Part shown: positions 18,574 through 46,027 of the stretch, in pieces
How the letters are laid out: each line of letters starts with the position of its first letter
Numbering within the stretch: position 1 is the first letter of the stretch
DNA from: Streptomyces sp. NBC_01294
Lineage (GTDB): Bacteria; Actinomycetota; Actinomycetes; Streptomycetales; Streptomycetaceae
Assembly: GCF_035917235.1 (NCBI RefSeq)
Contig: NZ_CP108423.1
Span: 1,054,001 to 1,118,000, forward strand
Length of the DNA: 64,000 nt
Direction of reading: 5' to 3'
The notes under the pieces: model-generated
What the model saw: only the letters and a program-made list of their open reading frames with translations
Told to the model about the DNA's origin: nothing
Database searches by the model: none
Translations under genes and position numbers: made by a program

Positions 18574-18620
18574 GGTGCTTCCTCTGCTCACGTCACGGCG
18601 TGGATGGTGTTCGGGGTGCC

Positions 18621-19631: not shown

Positions 19632-19840
19632 CGCTGGTCGAGGGTGGCGAGCAGGCTCGCCGGGCGGATGTCGGCCCAGTTGACCTCGATCCAGTCGAGG
19701 CACTCCTGGCGGGTGGCCTCGCCGTGGACGGTGGTCCAGCCGGCCGGCACGTCGATCCAGACCGGCCAGAGCGAGTGCTGGTTCTCGTCGTTGACCAGGA
19801 CCAGGTAGCCGGAGTTGTCGTCCTCGAACGGGTTGCTCAT
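19628..19840 (-). CDS. mbtH: MbtH-like protein
   Basis: The 70-aa protein shows the family pattern: MSNPFEDD start, YLVLVNDENQHSLWP, IDVPAGW, and a C-terminal ECLDWIEVNWADIRP with the conserved Trp residues. MbtH proteins bind A domains and support their folding or activity. It follows the P450 after a 173-nt gap, so it may start a separate transcript MbtH-hydroxylase-NRPS-C-exporter. Confidence 0.97.
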   Translation of the reverse strand: MSNPFEDDNSGYLVLVNDENQHSLWPVWIDVPAGWTTVHGEATRQECLDWIEVNWADIRPASLLATLDQR

Positions 19841-27900: not shown

Positions 27901-29436
27901 TTCGGCGTAGCCGAGGGTGCCGTCCTGGTCGCTCACGGCGGGCCGGTCGCCGTACGCGTCGGCGGCCCGCTCGAAGAGGTGGTGCAGGCAGTGGCCCGGG
28001 TCGAGCCGGGCGGGGCGGTGCGACTGCCCGGCGGAGGTGAGCCGCAGGACGGTGGCGTCCGGGTCGCTGAGGGCTGCGTCCAGCAGGTCGGCGTAGTCGG
28101 TGGCGAGCCGGCGCACGGTACCGGCGTCGAAGAGGTCGCTGCTGTACTCGGCCTCGCCGCGCAGTTCGCCTCCGTCGGCACTCTCGAAGACGGACCAGGT
28201 GAGGTCGAACTTGCTGGTGCCGTTGGAGCGGACGGTGCGCCGGGCGGTGGCGTCGCCGAGCGCCAGCGGCGTGCGGTCCTCGGCGTGGGCGCCGAACACC
28301 ACCTGGACCAGCGGCGGGTGCTGCGGGGTGCGGTCGGCGGCGAGCAGGTCGACCAGCTGGTCGAAGGGGACGTCGAGGTAGCCGAAGGCGTCGAAGGCGC
28401 CGTCCTGGAGGTCGGCGAGCAGCCCGCGGAAGGTGGCGCCGGGTGCGAGCCGGACGCGCAGCGGCAGCAGGTTGACGAAGTAGCCGAGCAGATCGGCGAC
28501 TTCGGGCCGGTTGCGGGTGGTGACCGGGGTGCCGACGAGCAGGTCGTCGGCGCCGGTCCAACGGCCCATCAGCAGGGCGAAGGCGGCGAGTTGGACGGTG
28601 TACGGGGTGACGCCCTCCTGTTCGGCGAGCTCCCGGACCCGGGCCGCGGTGCCGGGTGCGAGGTCGAACGGCTCGGTGGCGCCGAGCCGGCTGCTCTCGG
28701 CGGGCCGCGGCCGGTCGCCGGGCAGCTCCAGCAGGGTGGGGGCGCCGTCGAGGCTCTGCTTCCAGTGGGCGAGGTGTTCCTCGTACGAGGTGTGCTGCTC
28801 CTCCTCCGCCCAGTCGGCGTACTGGGTGGTGAGCGCCGGCAGCACGGGGGCCCGGTCCTCGATCGACGCGCTGTAGAGCTCGCCGAGTTCGCGGTCGAAG
28901 AGGTCGGCCGACCAGCCGTCCCAGACGATGTGGTGGACGACGAACAGCAGCGTGGTGCTGTCGTCGGCGAGGCGGAACGCCTCGGCGCGCAGCAGCGGGC
29001 CCTCGGTCAGGTCGAATGGTTCGGCGGCCCGTGCCGTCATCAACTCCTCGGCGCGGTCCGCCCGTCGGGGTTCGGGCAGCTCGCGGAGGTCGGTGACGGC
29101 GAGCGGCACGGCGAGGGTGCGGTGGACGTGCTGGCGCGGGCCGTCGGGGTGCAGGGCGAAGGTGGTGCGCAGCGCCTCGTGCCGGGCGACCACGCCGTCC
29201 AGCGCCCGCTGGAGCAGCGCGAGGTCGAGCGGGCCGGTGACCTCGTACGTCCAGGGGGTGGTGTAGGTGGCGGCCCGCGGGTTCCACCGGTCGAGGAACC
29301 AGAGGCCGCGCTGGAGGCCCGAGACGGGCGCGGTACGGACCGGGTCGACGGGTGGGGTGGCGGGTGGGGTGGCGGGCAGGGCGGCGGCCGTCGGGGCGGT
29401 CGGCGGCGCGGCGGGCAGGGCGGCGGACGGGCTCAC
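24907..29436 (-). CDS. NRPS-B: C-A-T-C synthetase
   Basis: The 1,509-aa protein opens with an Ala/Pro-rich leader of about 35 residues, then C1 (HHIVWDG near 168), A (TSGSTG near 630, YGITETTVH), T (LGGDSI near 1020) and a terminal C domain (EHHAILDG near 1224). The A-domain code reads DWWCMGLVH; the W239, G301 and VH ending resemble threonine-type pockets (DFWNIGMVH), but positions 236 and 278 differ, so Thr or another beta-hydroxy residue is only tentative. The protein ends in a C domain with no carrier after it, so its acceptor must be supplied in trans. GTG at 29436 follows NRPS-A by 61 nt. Confidence 0.92.
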   Translation of the reverse strand: MSPSAALPAAPPTAPTAAALPATPPATPPVDPVRTAPVSGLQRGLWFLDRWNPRAATYTTPWTYEVTGPLDLALLQRALDGVVARHEALRTTFALHPDGPRQHVHRTLAVPLAVTDLRELPEPRRADRAEELMTARAAEPFDLTEGPLLRAEAFRLADDSTTLLFVVHHIVWDGWSADLFDRELGELYSASIEDRAPVLPALTTQYADWAEEEQHTSYEEHLAHWKQSLDGAPTLLELPGDRPRPAESSRLGATEPFDLAPGTAARVRELAEQEGVTPYTVQLAAFALLMGRWTGADDLLVGTPVTTRNRPEVADLLGYFVNLLPLRVRLAPGATFRGLLADLQDGAFDAFGYLDVPFDQLVDLLAADRTPQHPPLVQVVFGAHAEDRTPLALGDATARRTVRSNGTSKFDLTWSVFESADGGELRGEAEYSSDLFDAGTVRRLATDYADLLDAALSDPDATVLRLTSAGQSHRPARLDPGHCLHHLFERAADAYGDRPAVSDQDGTLGYAELDRRANRLAHALLARGVRPGDRVGLLLERTASVPVAILAVLKTGAAYVPVDLAAPADRAALVFGDTAVTLVLTDRPDRAPDGPWQTLDLAARAEEIAAHPAVRPPAAGRPGDLAYLIFTSGSTGRPKGAGVAHEHVSRLLDSGRDHFGFGPETVWTLFHSYAFDWTVWELWGALLHGARLVVVPYLTSRSPDEFAALLDEERVTHLCLTPSALRQLEPALRRHPRALPALRWIMLGGEALDPAVVQRWHELDPLPPARLCNLYGITETTVHVTVHDVAQGGAGFERSLVGEPMPHLTALVLDDWLRPCPPGVPGELYIGGGSLAHGYWGRPGLTAGRFVADPYGPPGARLYRTGDVARRLPDGGMEYVGRADFQVKLRGFRIELGEIENAVAAHPEVDACVVTVHEDRLAAYVTGRAPDEPGDLRAFLGRSLPEYMIPASVTVLDALPLTVNGKVDRAALPAPDRAAPTPAAGRHVEPRTPEEELFAGVWTDVLGVGGIGVHDDFFHLGGDSIRAVQLAGALHDRGWQVTLRDVFNAPTVAELLPLARPVAADPAADRPFALIAEEDRAELPPGIVDAYPMVSMQLSMVFHMEVAGGTDSYHNVNSYRITGDLDETALRRSVEEAMTRHAVLRTGLDLSGYGEPLQLVHGTLPVPIECADLRGATEDEQGKRIRTVFDHHRDRPFDLAEPPLFRITVQRLADDAFQLTVSEHHAILDGWSFTSLLTEILERHTALAADPASAPTPPPRTAFRDFVAVERAAAADQESLAYWQRRLDGATGQLWPGSEHVHELPRTVERVLPDAPGQLRTVADALAVPVKSVALAAHLHALARITGRRRVTTGLAMNGRLERLGGTEVYGLFLNTVPLVAEPEGDDLAALVRHVHREELDMMPHRRVPFARLARMMADTALDSQFGYLRFHALGRLSAARIEDGRIGSEPTLRHEPNSFAFGASLIQDPVSQRVLLAVDHQRALVDDATAEAFMDAYAEALSRLATDA

Positions 29437-29497: not shown

Positions 29498-32400
29498 TCA
29501 TCGCGAGGCCAGTCGTTCGGCGATGGCGCCGACCGTCCTGCCGCGGAAGACCACCTGCGGCGGGACCCGGGTGGCGGTCTCCTGGGAGAGCCGCATGGCG
29601 ACCCGCACGGCGGCCAGCGAGTTGCCCCCGATACGGAAGAAGTCGGCGTCGGGACCGGGGTCCTCGGCCAGCCTGAGGACCGCGCGGACGGCGTCGGCGA
29701 CCAGCCGCTGGTCCGGGGTCAGCGGGTCGGCCGGGGCGGCCTCGGGGCGCTCGGCCGGGGCGGGCAGGGCCCGGCGGTCGACCTTGCCGTTCTGGTTGAG
29801 CGGCAGCGCGTCCAGCACGTCGAGGGTGGCGGGCACCATGTGCTCGGGCAGCATCCCGGCCAGGTGGTCGAGCAGCGTGTCGGGGTCGGGCGCCGGCGCT
29901 CCGGCGGTGGTGGTGACGTACGCGGCGAGCCGGCGGTCGCCCGGGGCGGGCTCGTGGACGGTGACGGCGGCCTCCCGCACGGACGGGTGGCGGGTGAGCG
30001 CGTCCTCGATCTCGCCGGGCTCCACCCGGAAGCCGCGGATCTTCACCTGGTCGTCGATCCGGCCGGTGATCTCCAGCACGCCCTCCGCCGTCCGGTGGCC
30101 GAGGTCGCCGGTGCGGTAGAGCCGTTCGCCGGACGCGCCGAACGGGGAGGCGACGAACCGCTCTGCGGTCAGCCCGGGCCTGCCCACGTACCCGAGGGCC
30201 AGCCCGGCGCCGGCCGCGTACAGCTCACCGGTGGTGCCGTCCGGGACGGGACGCAGCCGCTCGTCGAGGACGTGGATCGCCTTGCCGTGCAGCGGGTGGC
30301 CGATCGGGATGGAGGCGCCGGCGGCGTCCTGCGGGGTGGCGCGGTGGCAGGTGGTGAGGCCGAGGCTCTCGACCGGGCCGTAGCCGTTGGCGACGACCAG
30401 GTCCGGGTACTGGTCGAGCGCCTTGCCGACATGGGTGACGGAGGCCCGCTCGCCGGCGGTGAAGGCGACCTTGAGGCCGTCGTAGGTCTCCGGGAACTCC
30501 TCCAGGAGGAAGTTGAACAGGCTGGCGGACAGCTGGAGTTGGGTCACGCCGTGGCGGCGGGTGAGTTCGGCGACGGCCTGCGGGTCGGGCCGCTGGCCGG
30601 CCTGGAGCACGCACACCCCGCCGAAGGCCAGCGCGCCGTACAGCTCCAGGGCGAAGGCGTCCCAGGAGACCGGGGAGCACTGGAGCCAGACCTCGTCGGG
30701 CCCGAAGCGGGCGTAGTCCTGGCCGAGGTAGGTGGTGGTGAGGGCGCGGTGCGGGACGGCGACGCCCTTGGGGCGGCCGGTGGAGCCGGAGGTGAACATC
30801 ACGCAGGCGAGGTCAGTGCCGGTGACCGGCATGCCCGGGTCGTGGCCGGGGCGGGCCGCGACGGAGGCGGCCTCGGCGTCCAGGTCGAGGTGGCGGGCGA
30901 CCGGGAAGGGCGGGCTCGCGTGGCGGTGGGTGACCAGCAGGGCGGCGCCGCTGTCGGCGACCGCGCCCGCCAGCCGTTCGGCCGGGAAGTCCGGGTCGAG
31001 CAGGGTGTAGGCGGCGCCGGCCTTCAGCGCGGCGAGGAGGGCGACCACCAGGTCCGGTCCGCGCTCGACCAGGACGGCGACGGTGTCGCCGCGGCCGATG
31101 TCCAGGGCGCCGAGGTGGTGGGCGAGGCGGTTGGCCCGCTCGTTCAGGGCGCCGTAGTCGAGGCGGTCCTCGCCGGAGACCAGGGCGAGGGCGTGCGGGT
31201 CACGGGCCGCCCGGTCCTCGAACAGGCTGTGCACGGGCGCGTCGACGGCGGCGGCGAGGGTGCCGAGCCAGGCCTCGCACAGCTCGGCCATGGTGGCGGG
31301 GTCGAAGAGGTCGGAGTCGTACTCGAAGCGGCCGGTGAAGTCCGTGCCGCGGTCGTCGACGGAGATCGACAGGTCGAAGCGGGAGACCGGGTTGGAGTGC
31401 AGCTCGCGGGTGACCTCGGTGCCGCCGATGGTCAGCGGGCGGGTGTCCAGCGGGTGCAGCTCCAGCAGCACCTGGCAGAGCGGGTTGCGGTCCTCGGTGC
31501 GGTCGTCGGGGCGCTCCTCCATGACGGCGCCCGCGATGGCGTCGAACGGCGCCTCCTGGTGGCGGTAGCCGTCGATCGCCACCTCACGGACGTGCCGGAC
31601 CAGGTCGCGGAAGTCCATCCCCTCGTCGAGCCGGACGCGCAGCGGCAGCAGGTTGACGAAGTAGCCGATCAGCGCGTCGAGTTCGGCCCGGCCGCGGACG
31701 CTCACCGGGGAGCCGAGCACCAGGTCGCGCCGGCCGGTCCGCCGGTGCAGGGTGAGCGCGAGCCCGGCGAGCAGCACCATGAACGGTGTCGCGTCCTCGC
31801 TGCGGGCCAGCGCCCGGACGGCCTCGGCGACCGGGCGGGGCATCGTGAAGCGGTGGAACGCGCCGCGGAAGGCCTGCAGTTCGGGGCGGGGGTGGTCGGT
31901 GGGGAGCACAGGCTCGGCGGGCGCGTCGCGCAGGTGCTCGCGCCAGTGGTCGAGCTGCCGCTCGGCCGTGCCGTCCTCGCGCTGCCAGGTGCTGTAGTCG
32001 GCGTACTGGACCGCGAGTTCGGGCAGATCGGCGGGACGGCCGGTGGCCAGGGAGTCGTACAGGGCGGCCAGTTCGGCCTCCAGGACGGGGAGCGACCCCT
32101 CGTCCCAGACGATGTGGTGGCAGAGCAGCAGCAGGGTGGACGTCCCGCCGGTGCGGTAGAGGTGGGCGCGGACCAGCGGACCGCTCTCCAGGTCGAAGGG
32201 CGCCAGTGCGGCCTCGGCGAGCTGGTCGTCCAGGGCGGCGGAGGTGGTCTCCAGGACGGTGAACGGCAGCTCGACGGAGGGGTGGACGACCTGTCGGGGG
32301 CCGTCCTCGCCCAGCTCGAAGGTGGTGCGCAGCGCTTCGTGCCGGTCGACCACGCCGGCCAGGGCCCGGCGGAGCAGCTCCGGGTCGACGGGCCCGGCGA

Positions 32401-34360
32401 AGCGGAACACCCAGGGCACGATGTAGGTCGGGGCGCCCGGATTCCACTGGTCCAGGAACCAGAGCCCGCGCTGGAAGTTCGCGAGCGGCGCCTCGGTGGC
32501 ACCGGTCCGGGTCAGCGCCGGGCGCTCGCCGCCGTCCGAGGCCGCGGTGACCGCGGCGGCGAACTCGGCGAGGGTCGGCGCGTCGAAGATCGTGTACGGG
32601 GAGATCATGCCGAAGACGTCGAAGACCCGGCCGACCACGCGCACGGCGGTGAGCGAATCCCCGCCCAGGTGGAAGAAGTTGTCGTCGGCGCCGACCTCGG
32701 GCACCGCGAGCACGTCCGCCCAGACGGCGGCGATCAGCTGCTCGGCGGGGGTGCGCGGAGGGCGGCGGCCGGCGGCCGGTGCGGCGGGCGCGGCCTGGGG
32801 CTCGGGCAGCGCCGCCCGGTCCACCTTGCCGCCGGCGGTCAACGGGAAGGCGTCCAGAGTGGTGACGGTCGACGGGACCATGTGCTCGGGCAGCCGCTCG
32901 GCCAGGTAGGCGCGCAGCCCGGCCGCGTCGGGGGCGGTACGGGCCGCGTCAGGGGCGGCACCGGCCACGTCAGAGGTACTACCGGCCGCGTCCGGGGCCG
33001 TACGGGTCACGTAGGCGGCGAGCCGGCCCTCGTGCGCCACCACGACCGCTCCGGCGACGTCCGGGTGGCCGGCCAGCACCTGCTCGATCTCGCCGGGCTC
33101 GACCCGGAAGCCGCGGATCTTGACCTGGTGGTCCGCGCGGCCGACGAACTCCAGCGGAGCGTACGTACCGGACCGCCGGACCACGTCACCGGTGCGGTAC
33201 ATCCGGGCGCCCGGCTCCGGTGCGAAGGGGTCCGCGACGAACCGGCCGGCCGTCAGGCCCGGGCGTCCGTGGTAGCCGGAGGCCAGCAGCGAGCCACCGA
33301 GGTACAGCTCGCCGGGCACCCCGGGCGCCACCGGCCGCAGCCGCTCGTCCAGCACGTACGCGCGGCGGTCGCCGAGCGGGCGGCCGATCGGGACCGTGTC
33401 GCCCTCCCCCACCGTCGGACCCGCCGGCTCGTGGACGGTGGCGGTGACGACGGTCTCGGTCGGCCCGTAGGCGTTGAGCAGCGGCACGCCGGTGGCGGCC
33501 CACCAGCCGGCCGCGGCGTCCGGGTAGAGCCGGTCGCTGCCGGAGATCATCAGCCGGAGGGTGCGCGGCGGGCGGCCGTCCGCGCGCAGCGCGGCCACCA
33601 CCTCCTGGAAGTAGCCGGCGGCGAGGTTGGCCACGGTGACACCCTCGGCGTCCAGCAGGTCCAACAGGGCGGCAGGAGCGAGGAGTTGTTCCTCTGGCAC
33701 GACGATGCACGCGCCGGCCGAGAGGGCGGTGAGAACCTGCTCGACGGCCACGTCCACGGTCGGGCGGGCGAAGTGCAGCACCACGTCGTCCTCGGTGAGG
33801 CCGAAGCAGTCGACGGCGGCGGCCAGGTGGCCGGCCAGCGCGGCGAGCGGGACGTGCACGCCCTTGGGGCGACCGGTGGTGCCGGAGGTGTAGACAAGGT
33901 AGCCCGCGGCGGACTCGCGGCCGCGCCGGCCCGGGTCCGGGTCCGGGTCCGGGTCCGGGTCCGGCGCGGCCGCGAGTGCGACGGGGCCGGCGGGGCCGGC
34001 GGGGCCGGCGGGGCCATCGGCCTCGGCCTTGGCCTCGACCTCGACCAGCTCGCCGTCGGTGTAGGCGAGGGTGGCGCCGGCGTCCTCACGGATCCAGCGG
34101 TTGCGCTCCTCGGGCGCCTCCCGGTCCAGCGGCAGGTAGGTGGCGCCGGCCCGGAGGGCGGCGAGCAGGCCGACCACGTGATCGAGCCGATCCCAGCCGG
34201 TGACGGCCACCGTCCGCCCGGGGGCGATCCGGGCGGCGAGGGCGCCGCTCAGCTCGTCCAGCTCCCGGTAGGCAACGGTCCGGGCGCCGAGCCGTAGGGC
34301 CGTGCGGTCCGGGAACCGGCGTGCGACGGATATGAAGGGCAAACCGCGAGATTCCATCAT
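29498..34360 (-). CDS. NRPS-A: A-T-C-A-T loading and first extension synthetase
   Basis: The 1,620-aa protein begins directly with an adenylation domain, so it is the probable start of the line. Order: A1 ([10 protein letters not shown] near 158), T1 (GGDSL near 565), C (HHIVWDE near 748), A2 (TSGSTG near 1188), T2 (GGNSL near 1577). Codes read DVENMSAVT (A1) and DALQFAGGL (A2); neither matches a code I can assign. The C-domain active site has HHxxxDE instead of HHxxxDG. A1 carries an expanded linker of Pro-Asp and Gly-Pro-Ala repeats before its A3 core. The ATG at 34360 (or 34357) has a weak GGGG upstream. Being first, A1 may take the non-standard amino acid made by the upstream mutase cassette. 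Confidence 0.92.
33931..34016. repeat. In-frame microsatellites inside the first A domain
   Basis: Positions 33931-33964 are about five copies of the hexamer CCGGGT (Asp-Pro repeats in the protein). Positions 33982-34016 are about four copies of a 9-mer GCCGGCGGG (Gly-Pro-Ala). Both unit lengths are multiples of three, so copy changes keep the reading frame and alter only linker length between A-domain cores A2 and A3. Confidence 0.85.
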
Positions 34361-34553: not shown

Positions 34554-35828
34554 TTATCCGGTGACAGGAATTCCGGGGAAATCCGGGGACCATACGTCGT
34601 CCCGGTCCAGGGCGGCCGGCGCGTATTTCCCGAGCGCGCTGATCAGCAAGCGGAGTTCGAGCGCGAGGCACTCCGCGAAGCGGACCAGACCGGACTGCGG
34701 GTCCTCGGCCGTGGCGAGCAGGGCCGCCCGGCCCAGGCCCACCGCGCGGGCGCCGAGCGCCATGCTCTTCACCGCCCGGCCGCCCTCCCACATCCGCCCG
34801 GACACCAGAAGACAGGGCGGTGGACCGGCGGCCGCGAGCCGGCGCAGGCACTCCGCCAGCGGCAGGCCGACCTGCGCCGGGAAGGCCCCCGGCGCCCAGC
34901 CGGTGCCGCCCTCCGCGCCGTCCACCGTGACGGCGTCCGCCCCCGCGTCGGCGGCCACCCTGGCCGCCTCGGCGACGTCCCGGCCGGGGTGCAGCTTCAC
35001 CCAGACGCGGACCCGGGGGAAGTTGTTGCGCATCATCCGGATCTGCTGGCGCAGGATCTCCGCCGTGAAGGTGCCGGGGGTACTGGAGCGCAGCACCCGG
35101 CCGTCGCCGAACACGTCGTCCAGCCCGTACCGGTCGCCGAGCCGGGCGGCCGCGTCGGCGTCCAGCACGGTCATCCCGCCGAGGCCCGGCTTGGCCCCCT
35201 GCCCGACCTTCAACTCGAAGGCCAGACGCCCGGATTCGAGCAGGGGCAGAGCGGCCGGGTCGCTGTGGACGAGGTTCCACACCTCGGCGTCGGCGTCCTC
35301 GGTGGACTGCTGGACGGCGACCCCGCCCTGCCCGTCCGGCAGTTCCTCGGTGTAGGCCCGGAGGCGGCCGAGGAGCGCCCGGTCCGCCGACTCGCCGAGC
35401 CGGCCGTAGCCGTTCACCGGGACGACGTTCTCGCCGATCACCATGGGCAGGCCCAGCGCGCCCGCCTGCCGGCTGAGCGCGAGGCCGAGATCACCGCCGG
35501 CCGCCCGGGTGGATCCGAGCGCGGACACGTACGCCGGCAGGGAGGAGGTGAACCCGCCGATGGTGGTGGTCAGCTCGACGTCCCGGTAGTCCGGCTCGCG
35601 ACCGAGGTCGATCAGCCGGGCGAGCCGCTGCGGCACGAAGACCGGCGGCGCGATCCGCAGCGCGTCGAGCGGATCCCGCTCACCGCCCGGGTACAGGTCG
35701 CCCCGGTGCTCCGCGCCGAACAGGACCCGGCCGTACTCGCCGGGCGGCGGGAAGGCCGCCGCCACGCCGGCCCGGGCGCGCCGGCGGACCTCCTCCTCGG
35801 GGAAGCCGGGCGCCGAGAGGTCGCTCAC
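34554..35828 (-). CDS. GltS-like FMN protein (glutamate synthase domain 2 family)
   Basis: The 424-aa protein matches the FMN-binding TIM-barrel region of glutamate synthase large subunit: GQGAKPGLGG (cf. QGAKPGEGG), VDGAEGGTGWAP (cf. the GGTG motif) and a C-terminal SGRMWEGGRAVKSMALGA phosphate-binding region. It lacks the N-terminal glutamine amidotransferase and the Cys cluster that binds the 3Fe-4S centre, so it is not a complete glutamate synthase. Stand-alone relatives include the FMN subunit of N-methylglutamate synthase. GTG at 35828 overlaps the preceding stop in a GTGA. In this cassette it may catalyse an FMN-dependent redox or amination step on a Glu/Asp-like compound; this is inference. 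Confidence 0.8.
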   Translation of the reverse strand: MSDLSAPGFPEEEVRRRARAGVAAAFPPPGEYGRVLFGAEHRGDLYPGGERDPLDALRIAPPVFVPQRLARLIDLGREPDYRDVELTTTIGGFTSSLPAYVSALGSTRAAGGDLGLALSRQAGALGLPMVIGENVVPVNGYGRLGESADRALLGRLRAYTEELPDGQGGVAVQQSTEDADAEVWNLVHSDPAALPLLESGRLAFELKVGQGAKPGLGGMTVLDADAAARLGDRYGLDDVFGDGRVLRSSTPGTFTAEILRQQIRMMRNNFPRVRVWVKLHPGRDVAEAARVAADAGADAVTVDGAEGGTGWAPGAFPAQVGLPLAECLRRLAAAGPPPCLLVSGRMWEGGRAVKSMALGARAVGLGRAALLATAEDPQSGLVRFAECLALELRLLISALGKYAPAALDRDDVWSPDFPGIPVTG

Positions 35829-36826
35829 GGCGACACCACCCCGGGCACCTTCGGGAAGGCCGCGGCCTGCCATACCGCGTCCAGCCCGGCGACGTAGCGG
35901 GTCAGCCGCTCGACGCCGATGCCGAAGCCGGCGCTGCCGGGCACGCCCTCGCGGACCAGGTCCAGGTACCAGCGGTACTTCTGCGGGTTCTCGCCGCTCT
36001 CCCGCATCCGGGTGACGATCTCCGCGTAGTCGTTGGTGCGCTGGCTTCCGCTGCACAGCTCGCCGTAGCCCTCGGCCGCGATCAGGTCGAAGTTCCGGAG
36101 CGTGCCCGGCTGTTCGGGGTCCTCCCGGTCGTAGAACCCGCGCGAGCCCTTCGGGTAGTCGGTGACGAAGAACGGACGGTCCCGCCGGGCCGAGAGGAAC
36201 GCCTCTCCGGCCCAGTCGAGTTCGGCGTCCGGGCTCTGCGGGTGGCCGAGCCCCTGGAGCTCGGCGACCGCCTCCGCGTGCCGCATCCGGCCGAAGGAGC
36301 CCTTCAGCAGCTCGGTGAACGCGCCGATGTCCCGGCCGAGTTCGGCGAACTCCTTGGGCAGCTCACGGACCACGCTGTCGACCATGTGCACCACCAGCGC
36401 CTCGACCAGCCGCACGGCGTCGTCCCGGGTCGCACCCGCGACCTCCACGTCGAGCTGGTGGAACTCGGCCAGGTGGCGGCTGGTCCCGGCGGTCTCCAGC
36501 GGCTCCAGGCGGACGTTGGGGGCGATGCAGAAGATCTTGTCGAAGGCGAGCAGCGAGGCCTGCTTGTAGAGGATGGCGCTCGTCATCAGCTTGTAGCGGT
36601 GACCGTAGAAGTCGACGTCGACCTGCTTGGAACCGCGCGAGCCGGGGTCCGTGACCGGTCCGATGATCGGCGGGAGCAACTCGGTGAAGCCCTGCCCGCG
36701 CAGGAACTCGCGGGCGGCGAAGAGGAGCTGGTGCTGGATCCGGAGCGCGCTGCGAGTGGTCGGGGCGGTCAGGTGGCGGCCGGGGTCCGGAATCGGTGCG
36801 GGGGCCGTGAGCCCGTCGGTGGTCAT
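35825..36826 (-). CDS. Class II aaRS-like ligase, AsnA/AsnRS-related, without anticodon domain
   Basis: At 333 aa it contains only the class II catalytic core: a motif-2-like region (NVRLEP at 104-109, TSRHLAEFHQLDVE at 115-128) and motif 3 GFGIGVERL (about 300-308). Only about 20 residues precede the core, so the N-terminal OB-fold of aspartyl- or asparaginyl-tRNA synthetases is absent. That matches the AsnA-type paralogues, which activate the beta-carboxylate of Asp with ATP for amidation. The ATG at 36826 overlaps the mutase E stop (ATGA). Downstream of a glutamate mutase, amidation or activation of 3-methylaspartate is an attractive but untested role. Confidence 0.8.
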   Translation of the reverse strand: MTTDGLTAPAPIPDPGRHLTAPTTRSALRIQHQLLFAAREFLRGQGFTELLPPIIGPVTDPGSRGSKQVDVDFYGHRYKLMTSAILYKQASLLAFDKIFCIAPNVRLEPLETAGTSRHLAEFHQLDVEVAGATRDDAVRLVEALVVHMVDSVVRELPKEFAELGRDIGAFTELLKGSFGRMRHAEAVAELQGLGHPQSPDAELDWAGEAFLSARRDRPFFVTDYPKGSRGFYDREDPEQPGTLRNFDLIAAEGYGELCSGSQRTNDYAEIVTRMRESGENPQKYRWYLDLVREGVPGSAGFGIGVERLTRYVAGLDAVWQAAAFPKVPGVVSP

Positions 36827-38328
36827 GGTGTGGTGAGTCCCAACTCTCGTCGTGGCGTGGACGTCGTGCGGGGCGGTACGGGTACGGGCATGCGGGGCGG
36901 TACGGCCGTGCGGGGCGGGTCGGCGGCGGCGCCGAGGGGCGAGCGGGCGGCGGCGCGGGCGTCGTAGGTCCGTTGGACGTGGGAGAGCGCCGAGATCAGC
37001 CCGGCCGAGCCGAGGATCGGCGCGCGCGGGCCCCCGTCCGCCAGGCCGGCGATCGGCATCGACCCGATGCTCGACCAGTGCAGCCGGCCGTCGGGCCCGA
37101 GCGAGGTGCGGGTCCGGCCGGCGTTGTCGGGGTGCAGGCAGTAGGGGACGTCCAGGTAGCCGGCGGCGAAGGCCCGCACCAGCGCTCGGCCGATGTCGGC
37201 GTCCAGCTCCAGCACGGCGCCGATCAGCGCCCGCGCCTCCGCCTCGATGCCGGTGTCGTCGATGCCGGTGCTCGCGATGCCGGTGTCCTCGATGTTCGTG
37301 TCCGGGCCGGCGGTCCGCGGTCGGCGGGCGCGCTCGTCGGCGGCGGCCGCTGCTGCGCCCTCCAGCGCCAGGACGTTCTCGCCCACGGTCGGGATCCGGT
37401 GCGCCTCGGCGGTGGTCTTGACGATCAGCCGGGCCGCGCCGGCCCGCACCGCCAGCCGGGCCGCGTCCTCCAGCAGTAGCCGGGCCCCGCCGGGCGAGCG
37501 CGGGAAGACGCCCATGTAGGCGTAGAGGACGAGGTGGTGGTCCACGTCCGGCAGCAGTTCGCCGGCCAGCCGCCCGAGCACGGTGAGCGCCTCCTCGTCC
37601 TGGCGCGGATCGGCCTGCTGGGCATAGCTGAGGGAGATGGAGCGCAGCCCGTGCTGCCGGAAGAAGAGCGCCTCCAGCGCGCTGACCGCGATGAGCAGGC
37701 TCGGCGGGCAGAGCTGGCCCATCAGGCAGCCGCCGAAAGTCTCCAGGTGCGGTTCGGCACCGAACTCCGCCGCTGAGGCCAGCAGTTCGCAGCTGCGCCG
37801 CCAGGCGGTGACCGCCTCGCGCAGCGGCGTCCGGCTGTACGGCAGGCAGTACGAGACCGGACCGCCCTCGGTGGCGTCGAGGCCGATCGACAGCAGCGCG
37901 CGGACGATGTGTTCCGGCATCGCCGAACCGTGCCGGACCTGCACCGGGAAGCGCGCGTCCGCTACGCCCCGCAGCACGGCACGGGTGGTGTCCGCGGGGT
38001 GGGTGACGATCGGATAGCCGTTCAGACCGACCCCGTCGGCGAGGGCGCGCCGGGCCGCCGCGAGGTCGCCGGTGCGGGTGTAGCTGTCGAGCGTGATGGT
38101 GCCGACGGTGACGGCGTCCGCGTCCCGGGTGGCCAGCAGGCCGTCGCGCATCCGCAGCGGATCGGCCATGCCCATCCTGGGCTGGACCACGAGGGCGCCG
38201 GCCGCCCGGGCGCGGGAGACGAAGGCGCCGAAGCCGGACGCCTGGACGGCGGGGGCGGGGACCGGCACGGCGGGGGCCTTCGGGCACGCGGTGAAGGCGT
38301 CGATCGCGTCGCCCCCGGAGCCGGTCAC
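36823..38328 (-). CDS. glmE: Glutamate (methylaspartate) mutase E subunit
   Basis: The 501-aa protein resembles the catalytic TIM-barrel subunit of B12-dependent glutamate mutase, which interconverts L-glutamate and (2S,3S)-3-methylaspartate. Recognisable parts are VQPRMGMAD, NGYPIVTHPADTTRAVLRG, PVQVRHGSAMPE, the glutamate-binding TEGGPVSYCLPYSRTPL and the C-terminal LDVPYCLHPDN. An acidic variable segment with DTGI repeats lies near residues 330-350, and an Arg/Pro tail extends the end. The GTG at 38328 overlaps the S subunit stop by 4 nt. Such mutases supply beta-methylaspartate units in friulimicin- and vicenistatin-type pathways. Confidence 0.93.
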   Translation of the reverse strand: MTGSGGDAIDAFTACPKAPAVPVPAPAVQASGFGAFVSRARAAGALVVQPRMGMADPLRMRDGLLATRDADAVTVGTITLDSYTRTGDLAAARRALADGVGLNGYPIVTHPADTTRAVLRGVADARFPVQVRHGSAMPEHIVRALLSIGLDATEGGPVSYCLPYSRTPLREAVTAWRRSCELLASAAEFGAEPHLETFGGCLMGQLCPPSLLIAVSALEALFFRQHGLRSISLSYAQQADPRQDEEALTVLGRLAGELLPDVDHHLVLYAYMGVFPRSPGGARLLLEDAARLAVRAGAARLIVKTTAEAHRIPTVGENVLALEGAAAAAADERARRPRTAGPDTNIEDTGIASTGIDDTGIEAEARALIGAVLELDADIGRALVRAFAAGYLDVPYCLHPDNAGRTRTSLGPDGRLHWSSIGSMPIAGLADGGPRAPILGSAGLISALSHVQRTYDARAAARSPLGAAADPPRTAVPPRMPVPVPPRTTSTPRRELGLTTP

Positions 38329-38864
38329 AGCAGAGCCCCGGTCCTGGCAGGCTGCCCCCCGGACCCGGCGGGCAGCGCCCCGGTCCTGGCGGGCAGCGCC
38401 CTGGATCCGGCGGACAGCGAGCCGACGAAGGACTGGAAGTCCAGCACAGAGCCGCCCTCTTCGAAGACCCCGTCGAAGCCTGCCGTCAGCAGCGTCCGCT
38501 GCCGGGCCGGGGTGCCGGTGCCAGTGCCGTCGATCCCGAGCTTCCCGCCGATCACGGTCGGCGTCCGGGCCAGCTCGGGGCGGGCGCGCAGCGCCGCGAT
38601 CACCCGCAGTCCGTCGTGGAAACCGTGCCCGTTGACGCTGCTCAACACGATCAGGTCCGGCTCGATCCGGCAGCACTCGGCGACCAGCAGCTCGTCCGGC
38701 ACGCACGCGCCCAGGTTGGTGACCCGGTGACCGAGCTCCTCCAGCAGCAGCTGGAGGAAGACCAGGTTCCAGGTGTGCGAGTCCGAGGCCATGGTCGTCA
38801 CGACGACCTCCAGACCGGCCGGCTCGGCCTTTCCGTGCTGCTCCACGGCATGCTGCTGCTCCAC
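38325..38864 (-). CDS. glmS: Glutamate mutase S subunit (B12-binding)
   Basis: The 179-aa protein is the cobalamin-binding partner. It shows SDSHTWN in place of the canonical DxHxxG loop (the cobalt-ligand His is kept, the Gly is Asn), then SSVNGHG and VIGGKLG for the SxL and GG elements. A C-terminal tail repeats LPAR/GSG-type residues. The GTG at 38864 has AGAGGG 8 nt upstream; GTG 38846 is in frame but without a good RBS. It leads a four-gene run in which every gene overlaps the next by 4 nt, so equal expression is likely. Here glmS means mutase S, not glucosamine-6-phosphate synthase. Confidence 0.9.
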   Translation of the reverse strand: MEQQHAVEQHGKAEPAGLEVVVTTMASDSHTWNLVFLQLLLEELGHRVTNLGACVPDELLVAECCRIEPDLIVLSSVNGHGFHDGLRVIAALRARPELARTPTVIGGKLGIDGTGTGTPARQRTLLTAGFDGVFEEGGSVLDFQSFVGSLSAGSRALPARTGALPAGSGGQPARTGALL

Positions 38865-39102: not shown

Positions 39103-40362
39103 TCAGCTCGCCGCCGCCAGCTCCGGGTACGCGCCGGTCCCGCACAGGCGCCGGCAGAGGTTCAGCACGGTGAACCGGACGCCGTCGCGGGCCGGGACGC
39201 TGCGGATCAGCCCGCTCGCCAGCAGTTCGTGCACGGCCGCCAGGCACTCCTGCGGCGGTCTGCCGCTCAGCTCGACGGCGTCGTCGCCCGACCAGTCCCC
39301 CGGTCTCGCCGCGAGCCGTTCCAGCAGGTCCCGCTGGCCGAGCGTCAGCCGGTCCAGCGCGGCCCCCAGCGCCGCACCCACGTCGGCCCTGCCGCCGCCG
39401 AACCCGGCCGGCGGCGGCGCCAGGTGGAACGGACCGTCCGCCAGCCGCGCCACCAGTTGGCGCGGGGACAGCACCGTCGACCAGCCCGCCACGAGCTCCA
39501 ACGCCCCGGGCAGGCCGTCCAACTGGCGGCAGAGCGCGGCGACGGCGGGCGCCTCCTCGGGCTCCAGGCGGTAACCGGGGCGCAGCCGCCGCAGGTGCGA
39601 GAGCAGCAGTCGGACGGCGCCCACCTCGGCGAGTGCGCCCGGGTCGTGGTCGAGTTCCGTCCCGGGTGTGGGCAGCGGGGCGAGCGGGATCACCTGGCCG
39701 CCGGGCAGCGGCTGCGGGACGCGGGCGGTGATCAGTACCCGCAGGCCGGGGCAGCGCTGGAACAGTTCGTCCAGCAGGGCCGTGTCCACGCCGGCGTCGG
39801 CGCCGTCCAGGACCAGCAGCGTGGGCCGCTCCCCGATCGTCCGGGCGAGGTCCGCGCGGCGTTCGAGTCCGGCGGCCGGCAGCCGGCCGCAGTCGATCCA
39901 GCGCACCGACCACCGGGACACGAGGTACAGACGTCGCGCGACCTCCAGGACCAGCCGGGTCTTGCCGACCCCGCCCAGGCCGGCCACCGTGACCAGCCGG
40001 TCGCCGTGCACGGCGAGCGCGTCGGTCAGCACCTCGACCTCCAGATCCCGGCCGACGATGGCGCCCCGGGCGACCGGCGGCGCGGTCGGCTCGTCGCGCG
40101 GCTCCTCGACGAGCGCCTGCCGGCGCGCGGCCGCCTCGAAGTTCGACCGGTTGCGGCCCTCCAGCCGGAGCGCGTCGGCCAGCAGCCGGACCGTCTCCTG
40201 CCGGGGGCGCTGCACCCGCCCGCTCTCCATGTCACGGATCGCCCGGACGCTCAGGGTCGCGTGATCGGCGAGCACCTGCTGGGTCAGGCCGACCCGTTCA
40301 CGCCGGATCCTGAGCAGCTCTCCGAAGCCCGCCGCCGACTGCAACGACTGAACAGCGTCCAT
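39103..40362 (-). CDS. XRE-type HTH plus NB-ARC ATPase regulator
   Basis: The 419-aa protein starts with a Cro/CI-type helix-turn-helix (residues about 12-70, GLTQQVLADHATLSVRAIRD) followed by an NB-ARC-like ATPase with Walker A GLGGVGKTR and Walker B-like LLVLDGAD. LDGLPGALEL corresponds to the GLPLA motif. It ends soon after a short winged-helix-like region, without the TPR array seen in longer relatives. The ATG at 40362 was chosen over the longer open frame because AAGGTGG lies upstream and the HTH begins 12 residues in. It is the likely pathway-specific regulator of the NRPS side. Confidence 0.88.
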   Translation of the reverse strand: MDAVQSLQSAAGFGELLRIRRERVGLTQQVLADHATLSVRAIRDMESGRVQRPRQETVRLLADALRLEGRNRSNFEAAARRQALVEEPRDEPTAPPVARGAIVGRDLEVEVLTDALAVHGDRLVTVAGLGGVGKTRLVLEVARRLYLVSRWSVRWIDCGRLPAAGLERRADLARTIGERPTLLVLDGADAGVDTALLDELFQRCPGLRVLITARVPQPLPGGQVIPLAPLPTPGTELDHDPGALAEVGAVRLLLSHLRRLRPGYRLEPEEAPAVAALCRQLDGLPGALELVAGWSTVLSPRQLVARLADGPFHLAPPPAGFGGGRADVGAALGAALDRLTLGQRDLLERLAARPGDWSGDDAVELSGRPPQECLAAVHELLASGLIRSVPARDGVRFTVLNLCRRLCGTGAYPELAAAS

Positions 40363-41883: not shown

Positions 41884-43101
41884 CTACCGGGTTCCCGCGG
41901 AGCGCGCGGGTGGCCTTCCGTACGTGCCCCGGGTGTAGGCGTGGCGGAAGTCGGCCATGCGGGCGACCGCTTCCCGGAGCCTGTCCTCCGGCGCCAGCAG
42001 GCTCACGCGTACGTATCCCTCGCCGTGCTCGCCGAACCAACGGCCGGGAGCCACCGCCACCTTGGCCCGGTGGAGCAGCTCGTCGGCGAACGCGACGGAG
42101 TCCGCCCCTTCGGGCAGGGGCAACCAGGCGAAGATCGAGCCGGGAACGTCGAGTTGCCAGCCGGCTTCCCGTAGTCCGGCGACGAACACGTCCCTGCGGC
42201 GTGCGTAGATCCCCGAGAGCTCGTGGACGCAGTCCTGGGGGCCGGTCAGCGCCGTGACGGCGGCGCGCTGGATGAACGGCGGGAGCGAGACGTAGTAGTG
42301 CTCCTGGATGAGGTTGACGGCGGCGATGACGTCGCGGTTGCCGACGACGGCACCGATCCGCCAGCCCGCCATGTTGAACATCTTCGACAGCGAGATGAAC
42401 TCGACCCCCACGTCCTTCGCCCCGGCCGTCGCCAGGAAGGAGACCGGGGCCTCACCGCCCAGGCTCAGCCCCCCGTAGGCGAAGTCGGACGCCACGATGA
42501 CCTCGTGCTCGGCCGCGAACCGTACGGTGCGTTCGTAGAACTCCGGCGGAGCGGTCACCGAGGTCGGGTTGTTGGGATAGTTCAGGAACATCAGCTTGGA
42601 CTCGTCGGCCACGGCCGGGTCGACTGCCCCGTAGTCGGGAAGGAAGCCGTTGCCCTCCAGGAGCGGGAGGGGGTGCATGCGCGCCCTGGCGAGTACCACC
42701 CCCGCCCAGTAGTCCGGGAAGGCGGGGTCCGGCATCAGGCACACGTCGCCCGGGTTCAGGAAGCACTGGCTGATCTCCACCAGGCCGGCCTTCGCGCCGA
42801 ACAGGATCGCGACCTCGGTCTCGGGGTCCAGCTCGACCCGGTGGTTCACCGCATACCACCGGGCGATGGCGGTCTTGAGTTCGAGCAGGCCGGAGAATGC
42901 CGGGTAGCGGTGGGTGGCGGGGTCGAGCACCTCGCGGCGCAAGGCCTCGACGATGTGGGGCGGCGTGGGGAGGTCGGGGTTTCCCTGGCACAGGTTGACC
43001 ACGTCCTCGCCCGTCCCGACGAGGTGGGCGATGCTGCCCGCCATCGTCGCGAAGGAGCTTCTGGGCAGGTCCAGGAGGCGTCGTGCCGGTTCAGTTCTCA
43101 C
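41884..43101 (-). CDS. bacF: PLP aminotransferase, BacF-like
   Basis: The 405-aa class I/II aminotransferase has NPDLPTPPHI (41-50), NYPNNPT (174-180), DFAYG (206-210) and the PLP lysine in SLSKMFNMAGWR (K240). BacF transaminates tetrahydro-4-hydroxyphenylpyruvate to tetrahydrotyrosine in bacilysin biosynthesis. The GTG at 43101 overlaps the exporter gene by 11 nt. The BacF assignment relies on operon company; by itself it could be an alanine/tyrosine-type aminotransferase. Confidence 0.85.
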   Translation of the reverse strand: MRTEPARRLLDLPRSSFATMAGSIAHLVGTGEDVVNLCQGNPDLPTPPHIVEALRREVLDPATHRYPAFSGLLELKTAIARWYAVNHRVELDPETEVAILFGAKAGLVEISQCFLNPGDVCLMPDPAFPDYWAGVVLARARMHPLPLLEGNGFLPDYGAVDPAVADESKLMFLNYPNNPTSVTAPPEFYERTVRFAAEHEVIVASDFAYGGLSLGGEAPVSFLATAGAKDVGVEFISLSKMFNMAGWRIGAVVGNRDVIAAVNLIQEHYYVSLPPFIQRAAVTALTGPQDCVHELSGIYARRRDVFVAGLREAGWQLDVPGSIFAWLPLPEGADSVAFADELLHRAKVAVAPGRWFGEHGEGYVRVSLLAPEDRLREAVARMADFRHAYTRGTYGRPPARSAGTR

Positions 43102-44383
43102 CTGCCACCGCCTTGGTGCCGAGACGCCCGGCCGGAGCGTCGTCGGGGGTCGCCGTCCGCCCGGCGCCGCGCAGCCGGGCCCAGCCGCTGAGGGCGAAGG
43201 CGACCAGCGTGACGCCGGCGCAGACCCAGCCCACCGCGGAGAAGCCGTACGCGGTGAACAGGGGACCGAGCAGCGCCGCCCCGAGGGCGACGGCGAGGTT
43301 GGTGGCGAGGCTGTAGAAGGCGAGGATGGTCCCCCGGTGCGTCTGCGAGGTCTCGCTCAGCAGCGTGCTGAGCAGGGTGACGACCAGGCTCTGCATCGCG
43401 CCCCAGAGGAACAGGCAGACCACCAGCAGCGCCGTCCAGCGGCTCACCTGCGGGATCAGCGCCAGGGCGGGGACCAGACCGGCCAGCAGCGCGATGAGGA
43501 CCCGCTCCTTGCCGAGCCGGTCGGCCCACCTGCCGGTGACGAAGCTCGTCGCGAACCCCAGGCCGTACAGAAGGATCATGACGCCGGTCATGGAGCTGCC
43601 GTCGCCGAACCGGTCCTGCAGCGCGGTGCCGAGGTAGGTGTACATCCCGTAGAAGCCGAGCATGTTCAGGAAGGTCGCCAGTACGTACAGGGCCACCTTG
43701 GGCGCCAGGAAGGCCCGGGCCGCCGACCGTACCCACCCGTCCGAGGGTGCCGGGGTGTCGTCCTGCGCCTGCTGGGGAGCGTCCTCGTGGTCCGGGCCGG
43801 CGCCGCTCTTCGTGAACAGCATCACGAAGGTCACGAAGACGCCCAGGACCGACAGCAGCCCGAAGGTCCACCGCCAGCCGACCGACTGGCCGACGAACGA
43901 TCCCAGCGGCACGCCCACCACCAGCGAGATCGACCAGCTCGACACCAGGATGCCCATGGCCCTGCCCCGGTGCTGGTACGGAATCTGGTCGCCGACGAAC
44001 GCGTAGGCCGTCGGGACGAATGCACCCGTGGCCAGACCGGCCAGGGCCCGTCCGGTGAAGAACACTCCGGGCCCGGCGGCGAACGCGCACATCAGAGTGC
44101 CCAGGACGAACGCGCCCATGCCGATCGTCAGGGCGAGACGGCGTGAGAAGCGGTCGCCGAGCGGGGCGAAGAGCAGCGCGCCCACCGCCGTCGCGATGCC
44201 GTAGGTGCTGACGGACAGCGCCATCACGGCCACCGACGTGTCGAACGACCCGGCCATGTCCGCGAGCAGCGGGGAGACCACCAACTCCTCCGAGCCGACG
44301 GCGAAGATGCCCGCCATCAGTGCGAGGACCGTCAACACGGGGAACCCGGCAGCGCGTTGTTCGCCGCCCAATCGGTCCGACAC
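43091..44383 (-). CDS. bacE: MFS efflux protein, BacE-like
   Basis: The 430-aa transporter has about 12 hydrophobic segments, an A-motif-like LGDRFSRRLALT after TM2 and GRALAGLATGAFVPTAYAFVGD in TM4-5, placing it in the drug-proton antiporter group. The GTG at 44383 was chosen because AAAGG lies 9 nt upstream; a TTG at 44392 is in frame. In Bacillus, BacE exports bacilysin and gives self-resistance; here the likely cargo is the product of this operon. Confidence 0.87.
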   Translation of the reverse strand: MSDRLGGEQRAAGFPVLTVLALMAGIFAVGSEELVVSPLLADMAGSFDTSVAVMALSVSTYGIATAVGALLFAPLGDRFSRRLALTIGMGAFVLGTLMCAFAAGPGVFFTGRALAGLATGAFVPTAYAFVGDQIPYQHRGRAMGILVSSWSISLVVGVPLGSFVGQSVGWRWTFGLLSVLGVFVTFVMLFTKSGAGPDHEDAPQQAQDDTPAPSDGWVRSAARAFLAPKVALYVLATFLNMLGFYGMYTYLGTALQDRFGDGSSMTGVMILLYGLGFATSFVTGRWADRLGKERVLIALLAGLVPALALIPQVSRWTALLVVCLFLWGAMQSLVVTLLSTLLSETSQTHRGTILAFYSLATNLAVALGAALLGPLFTAYGFSAVGWVCAGVTLVAFALSGWARLRGAGRTATPDDAPAGRLGTKAVAGEN

Positions 44384-44459
44384 TCCAACCAACCTTTCCT
44401 TGATGTGACTACGGGAGAACTGCCGGCTGACGGGCCGGCGCCGGCGCCGGGCCGGGCCG

Positions 44460-45209
44460 CTAGATGGCCGTGTAGCCGCCGTCGACGGTGAGCGCGGCGC
44501 CCGTGATGAACGACGACTTCTCCGAGGCGAGGAAGAGGATCGCGTTCGCCACGTCCTCGGGCGTTCCCAGGCGCCCGATCGGATTCAGCTTCGCCTTCTC
44601 CTCCTTGACCGACGCGTCGTGGCCGATGGACGTGTCGGTCATGGGCGTGTCGATGATGCTGGGGCAGACGCAGTTGGCCCGGATGTTGTACTGCGCGTAG
44701 TCGACGGCCAGCGACTTCGTCAGCATCATGACGCCGCCCTTGGTGGCGTTGTACGCGGCGATGCCGGGCCAGGCCACCAGCCCGCTGACCGAGCAGACGT
44801 TCACGATGACCCCGCTGTTGGCCTCGACCATCGTGCGCAGCGCGTGCTTCGAGCACAGGAACATGCTCTTCAGGTTGGTGTCGACCAGCCTGTCCCACTC
44901 CTGCTCGGACATCTCGTGCAGGGGCGTGGATATCTCGATGCCCGCGTTGTTGACGAGGACGTCGACCGTGCCGTACGTCTCGGCGGCGGTGGTGATGAGG
45001 TGGCGGCAGTCCGCCTCACTGGTGAGGTCCGTCCTGATGAAGATCGCGTCGTGGCCGTCGCGCGTGAGGTCGGCCACCACGGCGGTGCCGGACGTCTCGT
45101 CGATGTCCGCGACGACGACCTTCGCGGCCTGCCGGGCGAATTCGATCGCGGTCTGCTTCCCGATGCCGGACGCGGCACCGGTGACCACGACCACAGTGTC
45201 CTTGAACAC
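44460..45209 (-). CDS. bacC: SDR oxidoreductase, BacC-like
   Basis: The 249-aa classical short-chain dehydrogenase has TGAASGIG (11-18), NNAG, a Ser in CSVSG and a complete YNATK catalytic motif. The acidic DIDE after the second strand suggests NAD preference. BacC oxidises the C7 alcohol of dihydroanticapsin to anticapsin. GTG at 45209 follows GGAGGAG. It lies 50 nt after the BacG-like gene. Confidence 0.85.
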   Translation of the reverse strand: MFKDTVVVVTGAASGIGKQTAIEFARQAAKVVVADIDETSGTAVVADLTRDGHDAIFIRTDLTSEADCRHLITTAAETYGTVDVLVNNAGIEISTPLHEMSEQEWDRLVDTNLKSMFLCSKHALRTMVEANSGVIVNVCSVSGLVAWPGIAAYNATKGGVMMLTKSLAVDYAQYNIRANCVCPSIIDTPMTDTSIGHDASVKEEKAKLNPIGRLGTPEDVANAILFLASEKSSFITGAALTVDGGYTAI

Positions 45210-45259
45210 GGACTCGTCTCCTCCTGTACTTCCTGTACGGGTTGAACTTCCAATGAGGC

Positions 45260-46027
45260 CTACACGCAGGCCAGTTGCCCGCCGTCGACCGAGATCTGCT
45301 GCCCGGTCAGGTACGAGGCTTCGTCGGACACCAGGAATCCGATGAGGGCGGCGACCTCGTCGGTGCTCCCCGGCCGGGCCATGGGGATGGCCGTCCGCAA
45401 CCGGTCCTCAGCCTCGGTCGGCGTGATTCCGCCGGCCCGGCTGATGTGCTCCACGGCCCGGTCGTAGCGCTGGGTCCGGATGGTCCCCGGGTGCACGCAA
45501 TTCACGGTCACGTTGTCCTTGGCGTACTGGCTCGCCAGATATTTACTCGCGTTCGACACCGCCGCGTTGACCAACCCCGAAAGGAACATGCCGGAGGCCG
45601 GCTCCTTTCCCATGTTCCCGACGATGTTGACGATCCGCCCGAATTCATTGCGGGTCATCACCGGAGCCACGGACTTGATCAGGTCCAGATACGGCACGAG
45701 CTTCCGCTCCATGGCGGAGGTCACGTCCGCGGGATCCGTATGGTCGAACGATCCGGGCGCCGGACCGGGCGCATTGTTGATCAGCACGTCGATCCTGCCG
45801 AATCGCCGCTCGGCGGCGGCGACCAGTTCGGCGCGGAACGATTGCGACGTGATGTCCCCCGGAACGACGAACACGTCCTGTCCGCAGCCGGATTCCCGTG
45901 CGACGTCTTCCAGCGCGCTCCGCGTGCGTGCACTCAGTACCGTCGCGTATCCCTTGGCCCGCAGATGCAGTGCCGTGGCGCGCCCGATTCCTTCACTGGC
46001 CCCCAGGACCATGGCCACCCGTGTCAC
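45260..46027 (-). CDS. bacG: SDR-fold reductase, BacG-like, without the catalytic Tyr
   Basis: The 255-aa SDR-fold protein has LGASEGIG (8-15), an SART segment that suggests NADPH, and NNAPG. At the usual YxxxK site the sequence is SNASK, so the Tyr is Ser while Lys remains. BacG reduces dihydro-hydroxyphenylpyruvate by conjugate hydride addition, a reaction that may not need the SDR Tyr. The GTG at 46027 overlaps the cupin stop (GTGA), with AGGAAA upstream. Confidence 0.83.
   Translation of the reverse strand: MTRVAMVLGASEGIGRATALHLRAKGYATVLSARTRSALEDVARESGCGQDVFVVPGDITSQSFRAELVAAAERRFGRIDVLINNAPGPAPGSFDHTDPADVTSAMERKLVPYLDLIKSVAPVMTRNEFGRIVNIVGNMGKEPASGMFLSGLVNAAVSNASKYLASQYAKDNVTVNCVHPGTIRTQRYDRAVEHISRAGGITPTEAEDRLRTAIPMARPGSTDEVAALIGFLVSDEASYLTGQQISVDGGQLACV

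Follow-up and report, generated by a model that had tools for sequence, protein, structure and literature searches.

The window analysed here, a stretch of 64,000 nucleotides (nt) from Streptomyces sp. NBC_01294 (contig NZ_CP108423.1, positions 1,054,001 to 1,118,000), carries four open minus-strand frames that span 38864 to 34554 and that we call S, E, N and G. S (38325–38864, minus strand; GTG start, 179 aa) is the cobalamin-binding small subunit of a glutamate-mutase-type enzyme and E (36823–38328, minus strand; 501 aa) the catalytic large subunit of glutamate mutase (methylaspartate mutase E). N (35825–36826, minus strand; 333 aa) is an asparagine synthetase A of the archaeal type, related to asparaginyl-tRNA synthetase (AsnRS) and free of an anticodon-binding domain, and G (34554–35828, minus strand; 424 aa) is a glutamate-synthase-type domain binding flavin mononucleotide (FMN), with neither an amidotransferase nor iron–sulfur (Fe–S) cysteines. 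Their Pfam families are, in order, B12-binding, Met_asp_mut_E, tRNA-synt_2 and Glu_synthase/FMN_dh. Each gene overlaps the next by 4 nt (GTGA for S–E, ATGA for E–N and GTGA for N–G), bearing out the overlapping four-gene cassette that an initial annotation of this DNA had described. S–E–N–G, present as a set in numerous soil actinobacteria, is one biosynthetic cassette: a real, widespread sub-pathway, mostly linked to non-ribosomal peptide synthetases (NRPSs), whose probable product from glutamate is 3-methylasparagine, an uncommon constituent of peptides.

S scores 47.9 bits against Pfam PF02310 and lies below the NCBIfam cut-offs for methylaspartate mutase S (34.3 versus 135.8 bits and 39.6 versus 110 bits). 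The cobalamin-binding motif of this subunit is DxHxxG; S reads DSHTWN at that place, with D28 and H30 kept in at least 90%, and N33 in 15 of 15, aligned sequences. E reaches 262.5 bits against Pfam PF06368 (cut-off 26.6), matches the glutamate mutase epsilon subunit in the PDB (6h9e, E-value 3.2e-30) and stays below the NCBIfam equivalog model (144.6 bits, cut-off 390.1). Judged by these sub-cut-off equivalog scores, the two proteins are a divergent branch of glutamate mutase. Residues R85, R132, E154, Y160, Y164, K304 and E308 of E are invariant in 15 aligned sequences, and the first arginine (QPR) is kept in the 13 that include that stretch, the gene calls of loci L022 and L046 beginning too late. 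E combines membership of the glutamate mutase family with equivalents of what we take to be the glutamate-binding set of GlmE (an arginine claw, E171, Y177, Y181, K326 and E330, in the numbering assumed here), and the glutamate mutase S/E assignment of the initial annotation stands.

N passes the curated cut-off of NCBIfam NF005052, 'asparagine synthetase A' (453 bits, cut-off 368), and also matches the archaeal AsnA structure 3p8t. It aligns only to AsnRS residues 124–432, that is, to the catalytic part; the class II catalytic residues R106, E108 and R307 are invariant in 21 aligned sequences, and TDP, QLD and SGGERE-like motifs are common to N and archaeal AsnA structures. An asparaginyl-tRNA synthetase was considered and rejected, since the anticodon-binding domain is absent and the equivalog scores fall short (167.5 versus 342.6 bits and 200.7 versus 414 bits); N is, as first proposed, an AsnA-type ligase and not a tRNA synthetase. 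The AsnRS-related AsnA family uses free ammonia, and N is predicted to amidate its substrate with ATP and ammonia.

G scores 69.7 bits against Pfam PF01645 (cut-off 20.4), placing it among FMN/GltS domains, and 54.5 bits against PF01070 (FMN_dh, cut-off 24.9), which its fold also matches, with catalytic residues judged by eye only. A Pfam scan of the 424-aa protein finds no amidotransferase family. Aligned to GltB of the same genome, G retains the KxxQGAKPG, VKL and GGTG segments and is without the stretch bearing the Fe–S cysteines (C..C..C) and the SPPPHHD segment. Scan and alignment thus agree with the GltS-like FMN protein, stripped of amidotransferase and Fe–S cysteines, that had been annotated; glutamate synthase itself was rejected as an identity for G on these same two absences. 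The AlphaFold model (predicted local distance difference test score 73, predicted template modelling score 0.75) matches the barrels of FMN-dependent dehydrogenases and of type 2 isopentenyl diphosphate isomerase, giving no clue at the level of the reaction; GltS structures are absent from the 50 fold matches shown, an absence that says nothing on membership.

Searching genome contigs with an alignment of G, we retained the best 80 of 209 confirmed loci. N is present in all 80, E in 70 and S in 67, with a contiguous S–E–N–G order in 49. N stands directly upstream of G on the same strand in 68 loci, and in 66 of these the N stop overlaps a possible G start by 4 nt. NRPS sequence is seen in 60 of the 80. 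Among 245 genomes drawn from the order, a sample that overlaps the 80 loci (genome G066 is that of L054), G occurs in 30 and N in those same 30, within 50 nt of G in 28; the exceptions are G160 (two contigs) and G066 (about 7.6 kb, opposite strands). In 29 of the 30, no more than about 5 kb separates mutase E from G. All 30 fall in the genus of the window as grouped there (one of eight genera), and 296 genomes drawn from the phylum hold G in two cases, one being the window's own genome. Pairwise distances over 63 loci correlate best for G–N (0.89), followed by E–S and N–S (0.85 each), G–S (0.84), G–E (0.78) and N–E (0.77). In two annotated plasmid records the four genes recur in this order close to NRPS genes, and a single uninterrupted frame covers both E and N in L061 (818 aa) and in P0211, a partial protein from a metagenome-assembled genome. 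The association of S, E, N and G is not due to chance, and both the conserved co-occurrence on which the initial annotation had proposed a check and the NRPS setting are borne out. A role in primary metabolism was rejected on the occurrence of N–G in just 30 of 245 genomes and of NRPS sequence at 60 of 80 loci.

Mutase E occurs in 67 of the 245 genomes, and 38 of these are without G (five of the 38 hold only a distant E, at 35–37% identity); G is thus presumably dispensable for methylaspartate and goes with the amide. The same 38 genomes can be turned towards a simpler explanation, in which the cassette yields 3-methylaspartate only and N and G form a separate cellular supply of asparagine or glutamate, and glutamate mutase alone does feed other non-ribosomal peptide and macrolactam pathways. 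Such a general supply sits badly with a pair found in only 30 of 245 genomes, contiguous with S–E in 49 of 80 loci, flanked by NRPS sequence in 60 and accompanied by a different adenylation-domain pocket; we consider it highly improbable.

The tightness of the N–G pairing, which exceeds that of either with the mutase, bears on another alternative, in which G would supply ammonia: it would oxidize glutamate or another amino acid with its FMN and pass the ammonia to N, replacing an AsnB-type glutaminase domain, and the product would be plain 3-methylasparagine. G has retained the GltS FMN barrel and N is of a type that uses free ammonia, as this would require. Set against it, L021, L054, L058 and L073 have N and G on opposite strands and separated by kilobases, contrary to an obligate complex; no electron-acceptor partner was noticed among the genes scanned, and the chemistry would be wasteful. 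Ammonia supply by G is therefore unlikely in our estimate.

A profile derived from the window served to read the substrate pockets of 153 adenylation (A)-domain rows; position 239 was left unused, as alignment gaps remove it from many strings. Two classes recur: class 1 has a tryptophan before D235 (WD..) and H or Q at 278, and class 2 has Y278 and W299. One or the other is found in 55 of the 57 loci with A-domain rows (class 1 in 35, class 2 in 20), the exceptions being L008, a 4-kb contig, and L075, with Y278 in the WD lineage. The DL..K278 pocket, which we take to be of Asp/Asn type, is found in none of 144 A-domain rows. As mutase sites without N–G we took all 49 at no less than 49% identity, nine of them second copies in genomes having G, and left out six at 35–37%; 35 have A-domain rows, with class 1 or 2 in one, K or R at 278 in three and neither in 31. 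The sole class 1/2 case, L140 (class 2), is on a contig that ends just after E, and its N–G may simply be missing from the assembly. The R278 site, L125, is in the WD lineage and lies about 13 kb from the L133 mutase pair, which is without N–G. A recurring odd pocket, WDY-PTTQRV/I, is seen in L135–L138, L142–L144 and other mutase loci without N–G.

The WD-lineage motif pattern was counted in a shortened form (27 of 245 genomes, against one for the strict form). It occurs in 17 of 30 genomes with G and 10 of 215 without (Fisher p 9e-12, a rough figure given that the genomes are related), and 16 of the 17 have a copy no more than 20 kb from G on the same contig. The best-matching A domains of 19 genomes without G gave class 1 or 2 in none of 30 rows (28 loci, with three rows, one empty, from L097; L086 and L106 were left out as lying in the window). 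At ten WD-lineage sites of genomes without G, residue 278 is Y (seven), W, N or R and never H or Q, and three WD-lineage sites on separate contigs of G genomes all have Q278. W278, seen in several control sites, presumably marks a valine-type pocket. Exchanging one methyl of valine for a carboxamide gives 3-methylasparagine, and the H/Q class, as a valine pocket with its tryptophan swapped for a neutral hydrogen-bonding residue, would accordingly suit it; the pockets fit the amide better than the free acid. Three consecutive NRPS modules of L034 (14609–20699) share the pocket DA-HMGGIF, which suggests that its peptide holds a run of three cassette-derived residues. Like gene content, order, overlaps and conservation, the N–G pairing and the correlation with A-domain pockets are direct observations on the DNA.

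The best-supported route, with a probability of about 0.65, comprises an S/E mutase, amidation by N and NRPS use of the amide; each reaction is inferred from the protein families. S and E, as an adenosylcobalamin-dependent glutamate mutase, would convert L-glutamate into 3-methylaspartate, whose beta-carboxylate N would adenylate and amidate with ammonia to give 3-methylasparagine. The A domains thus lend weight to the amidation of methylaspartate suggested in the initial annotation, with 3-methylasparagine as the candidate final product. In the window the proposed loader is the second A domain (30041–31222, minus strand; pocket DA(L)QFAGGL, WDAFALE motif) of the NRPS protein directly downstream of the cassette (29498–34360, minus strand; A-T-C-A-T by its Pfam domains, T and C being thiolation and condensation domains).

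G would act with N on the amide branch, most likely by altering the amidated amino acid without net redox change, for example by inverting C2 or C3 by way of an imine and enamine. Its role and the stereochemistry are guesses; stereo-editing that needs the more acidic C3–H of the amide comes first, ammonia supply second and another nucleophile third. More tentatively, and as a possibility at rather less than even odds, N–G could be a new two-enzyme module in which N amidates a beta-branched aspartate and G edits the amide (for example inverting C3 or C2 through the imine–enamine path). Actinobacteria would then have a widespread path to beta-branched asparagines of defined stereochemistry; glutamate mutase or another source would feed it, and NRPSs and ATP-grasp peptide systems alike would draw on it.

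Several points weigh against the mutase–amidation–NRPS route. S and E score well under the NCBIfam equivalog cut-offs, which leaves the conserved residues to carry the substrate assignment. Nor do the 80 loci count as independent, since 15 (L003–L017) are close relatives of the window's cluster, and 20 are without NRPS sequence in the stretch covered, some being short contigs. The pocket readings depend on assumed position numbers and reference codes; Y278 or N278 is present in eight of the ten WD-lineage sites from genomes without G, so that a polar residue at 278 is not specific and only H or Q is; and the acid-type contrast comes from three loci, the other 31 of 35 having neither kind of pocket. 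The requirement of G for an amide is a guess, and we know of no product for any of these loci. S and E are both missing from ten of the 80 loci. In two cases (L008 and L031) the contig starts about 1.3 kb upstream of G; the eight on long contigs belong to three genomes with an E homologue elsewhere and five without any, and N–G must draw another substrate there. In some organisms, then, N–G can do without the mutase.

One group without S and E beside N–G comprises L021, L033, L054, L058 and L073. L058 (2423–9677) has genes for a 2-isopropylmalate synthase-like protein (below cut-off), an isopropylmalate isomerase and a branched-chain aminotransferase near N–G, and members of the 2-isopropylmalate synthase-like family occur in all five loci. 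These genes may offer a different way to a 3-alkyl-aspartate, or lead to some other residue.

The loci without NRPS sequence in the stretch covered include three groups and L046. A Kribbella group, read in L022, has ATP-grasp, Lys/Orn monooxygenase and dimethylargininase-like proteins; in the L050 group a pair of ATP-grasp ligases occurs with a luciferase-type monooxygenase, a flavin reductase and a PP-loop ATPase whose motif was recognized by eye; and the L041 group has a MetRS-like protein and a DAO protein, with cupin-like and P450-like proteins read by eye. These neighbours are what gives some weight to a further alternative, in which N would join the activated beta-carboxylate to a hydroxylamine, hydrazine or amine readied by G, forming a hydroxamate, hydrazide or N-substituted methylasparagine: the monooxygenase of L022, the flavin monooxygenase and flavin reductase of L050, and the MetRS-like, DAO and (by eye) cupin-like proteins of L041 would all be in keeping with it. 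N is nonetheless closest to ammonia-using AsnA, and no N-oxidizing or N–N-forming enzyme is found among the window genes scanned (a gene-by-gene scan for these did not extend to the NRPS loci), making this reading more doubtful still than ammonia supply by G. S–E–N–G stands near MetRS-like, cupin-like and DAO genes in L041 (1582–7297), L019, L030 and L074, with S not found in L019; sets of this sort are known from hydrazine formation. The PP-loop ATPase of L019, L030 and L041 is common to the L050 group. L046 has genes for KASIII-like, ATP-grasp, decarboxylase, carrier-protein, acyl-CoA dehydrogenase and phosphopantetheinyl transferase proteins.

Around the cassette, the window encodes further peptide assembly genes, all on the minus strand. 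Downstream of the A-T-C-A-T protein come an NRPS protein with C, A, T and a further C-type domain (24907–29436; pocket DWWCMGLVH), a stand-alone A-T protein (22100–23878; read by eye, pocket DA-DFGLVD) and an NRPS protein with four A domains and a C-terminal thioesterase (4996–18573; domains scanned on the longer open reading frame (ORF) 4996–19539). Between these lie a type II thioesterase (21231–22103; gene call, PF00975 on the longer ORF 21231–23924), a cytochrome P450 (20014–21237; gene call, PF00067 on the longer ORF 20014–22425), an MbtH-like NRPS helper (19628–19840; PF03621, 97.4 bits) and a TauD-family Fe/2-oxoglutarate oxygenase (18621–19631; PF02668, 152.7 bits) with relatives in L023 and L081. 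An MFS protein also lies downstream of the cassette, and upstream is a helix-turn-helix/STAND-type regulator (39103–40344), whose family has members in 20 of 82 loci compared. An operon at 41884–47336 (minus strand) resembles that for bacilysin/anticapsin biosynthesis, with an aminotransferase, an MFS protein, an SDR (best match anticapsin BacC, below cut-off), a second SDR, a cupin and a prephenate-dehydratase-like protein; its aminotransferase, SDRs and cupin have no match at E 1e-5 in the 82 loci, so it seems to be a separate cluster. At the cluster edge (2719–3534, minus strand) is a dimethylargininase-like protein, above the NCBIfam cut-off, with a relative beside the Kribbella cassette.

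The residue proposed here has a precedent in omnipeptin, a bacterial non-ribosomal peptide containing beta-methyl-asparagine, obtained by expressing two related clusters from soil metagenomes in Streptomyces albus; to its authors' knowledge, the residue was the first of its kind in a bacterial non-ribosomal peptide (PMC6710260). The passages of that paper on omnipeptin name no pathway, 'mutase' occurs zero times in its main text, and the cluster sequence lies within GenBank MN161598–MN161666 (PMC6710260). The guess in the initial annotation of a new building block accordingly holds in part: the building block itself is not new (PMC6710260), and its route is the part not found described. The enzyme families are known; neither a route to 3-methylasparagine nor the four-gene combination was found in open-access full texts, supplements not covered, in line with the initial annotation, which knew of no described pathway with this exact gene set. 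Nyuzenamide and epoxinnamide, considered as products on account of possible methylated Asx residues, were rejected, terms for such residues being absent from both main texts. If the proposed route is correct, the cassette becomes a genome-mining marker for beta-methyl-asparagine in the 30 of 245 genomes of the order that hold N–G, and the pocket signature predicts where the residue is loaded. G would add a flavoenzyme of well-known fold and unassigned reaction, and which four genes suffice for the omnipeptin residue becomes testable.

Each part of the cassette has a known relative. S and E resemble the GlmS/GlmE glutamate mutases of NRPS and macrolactam clusters in their subunits and conserved glutamate-binding residues, and differ in their low equivalog scores, in DxHxxN for DxHxxG in S and in being joined to N and G. 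N shares with archaeal asparagine synthetase A (AS-AR, PDB codes 3p8t and 1nnh) a lone AsnRS-like catalytic domain, its motifs and its class II residues, whereas it belongs to a specialized-metabolite cassette, goes with G and has 3-methylaspartate as its presumed substrate. G has the FMN barrel of the glutamate synthase large subunit GltB, with KxxQGAKPG, VKL and GGTG, and departs from it in lacking the amidotransferase, the Fe–S cysteines and SPPPHHD and in having another partner and another presumed substrate; some G homologues are named by JGI as N-methylglutamate synthase subunit C, which has the same FMN barrel. The proposed product, finally, has its counterpart in omnipeptin, a bacterial non-ribosomal peptide with a beta-methyl-asparagine residue (PMC6710260).

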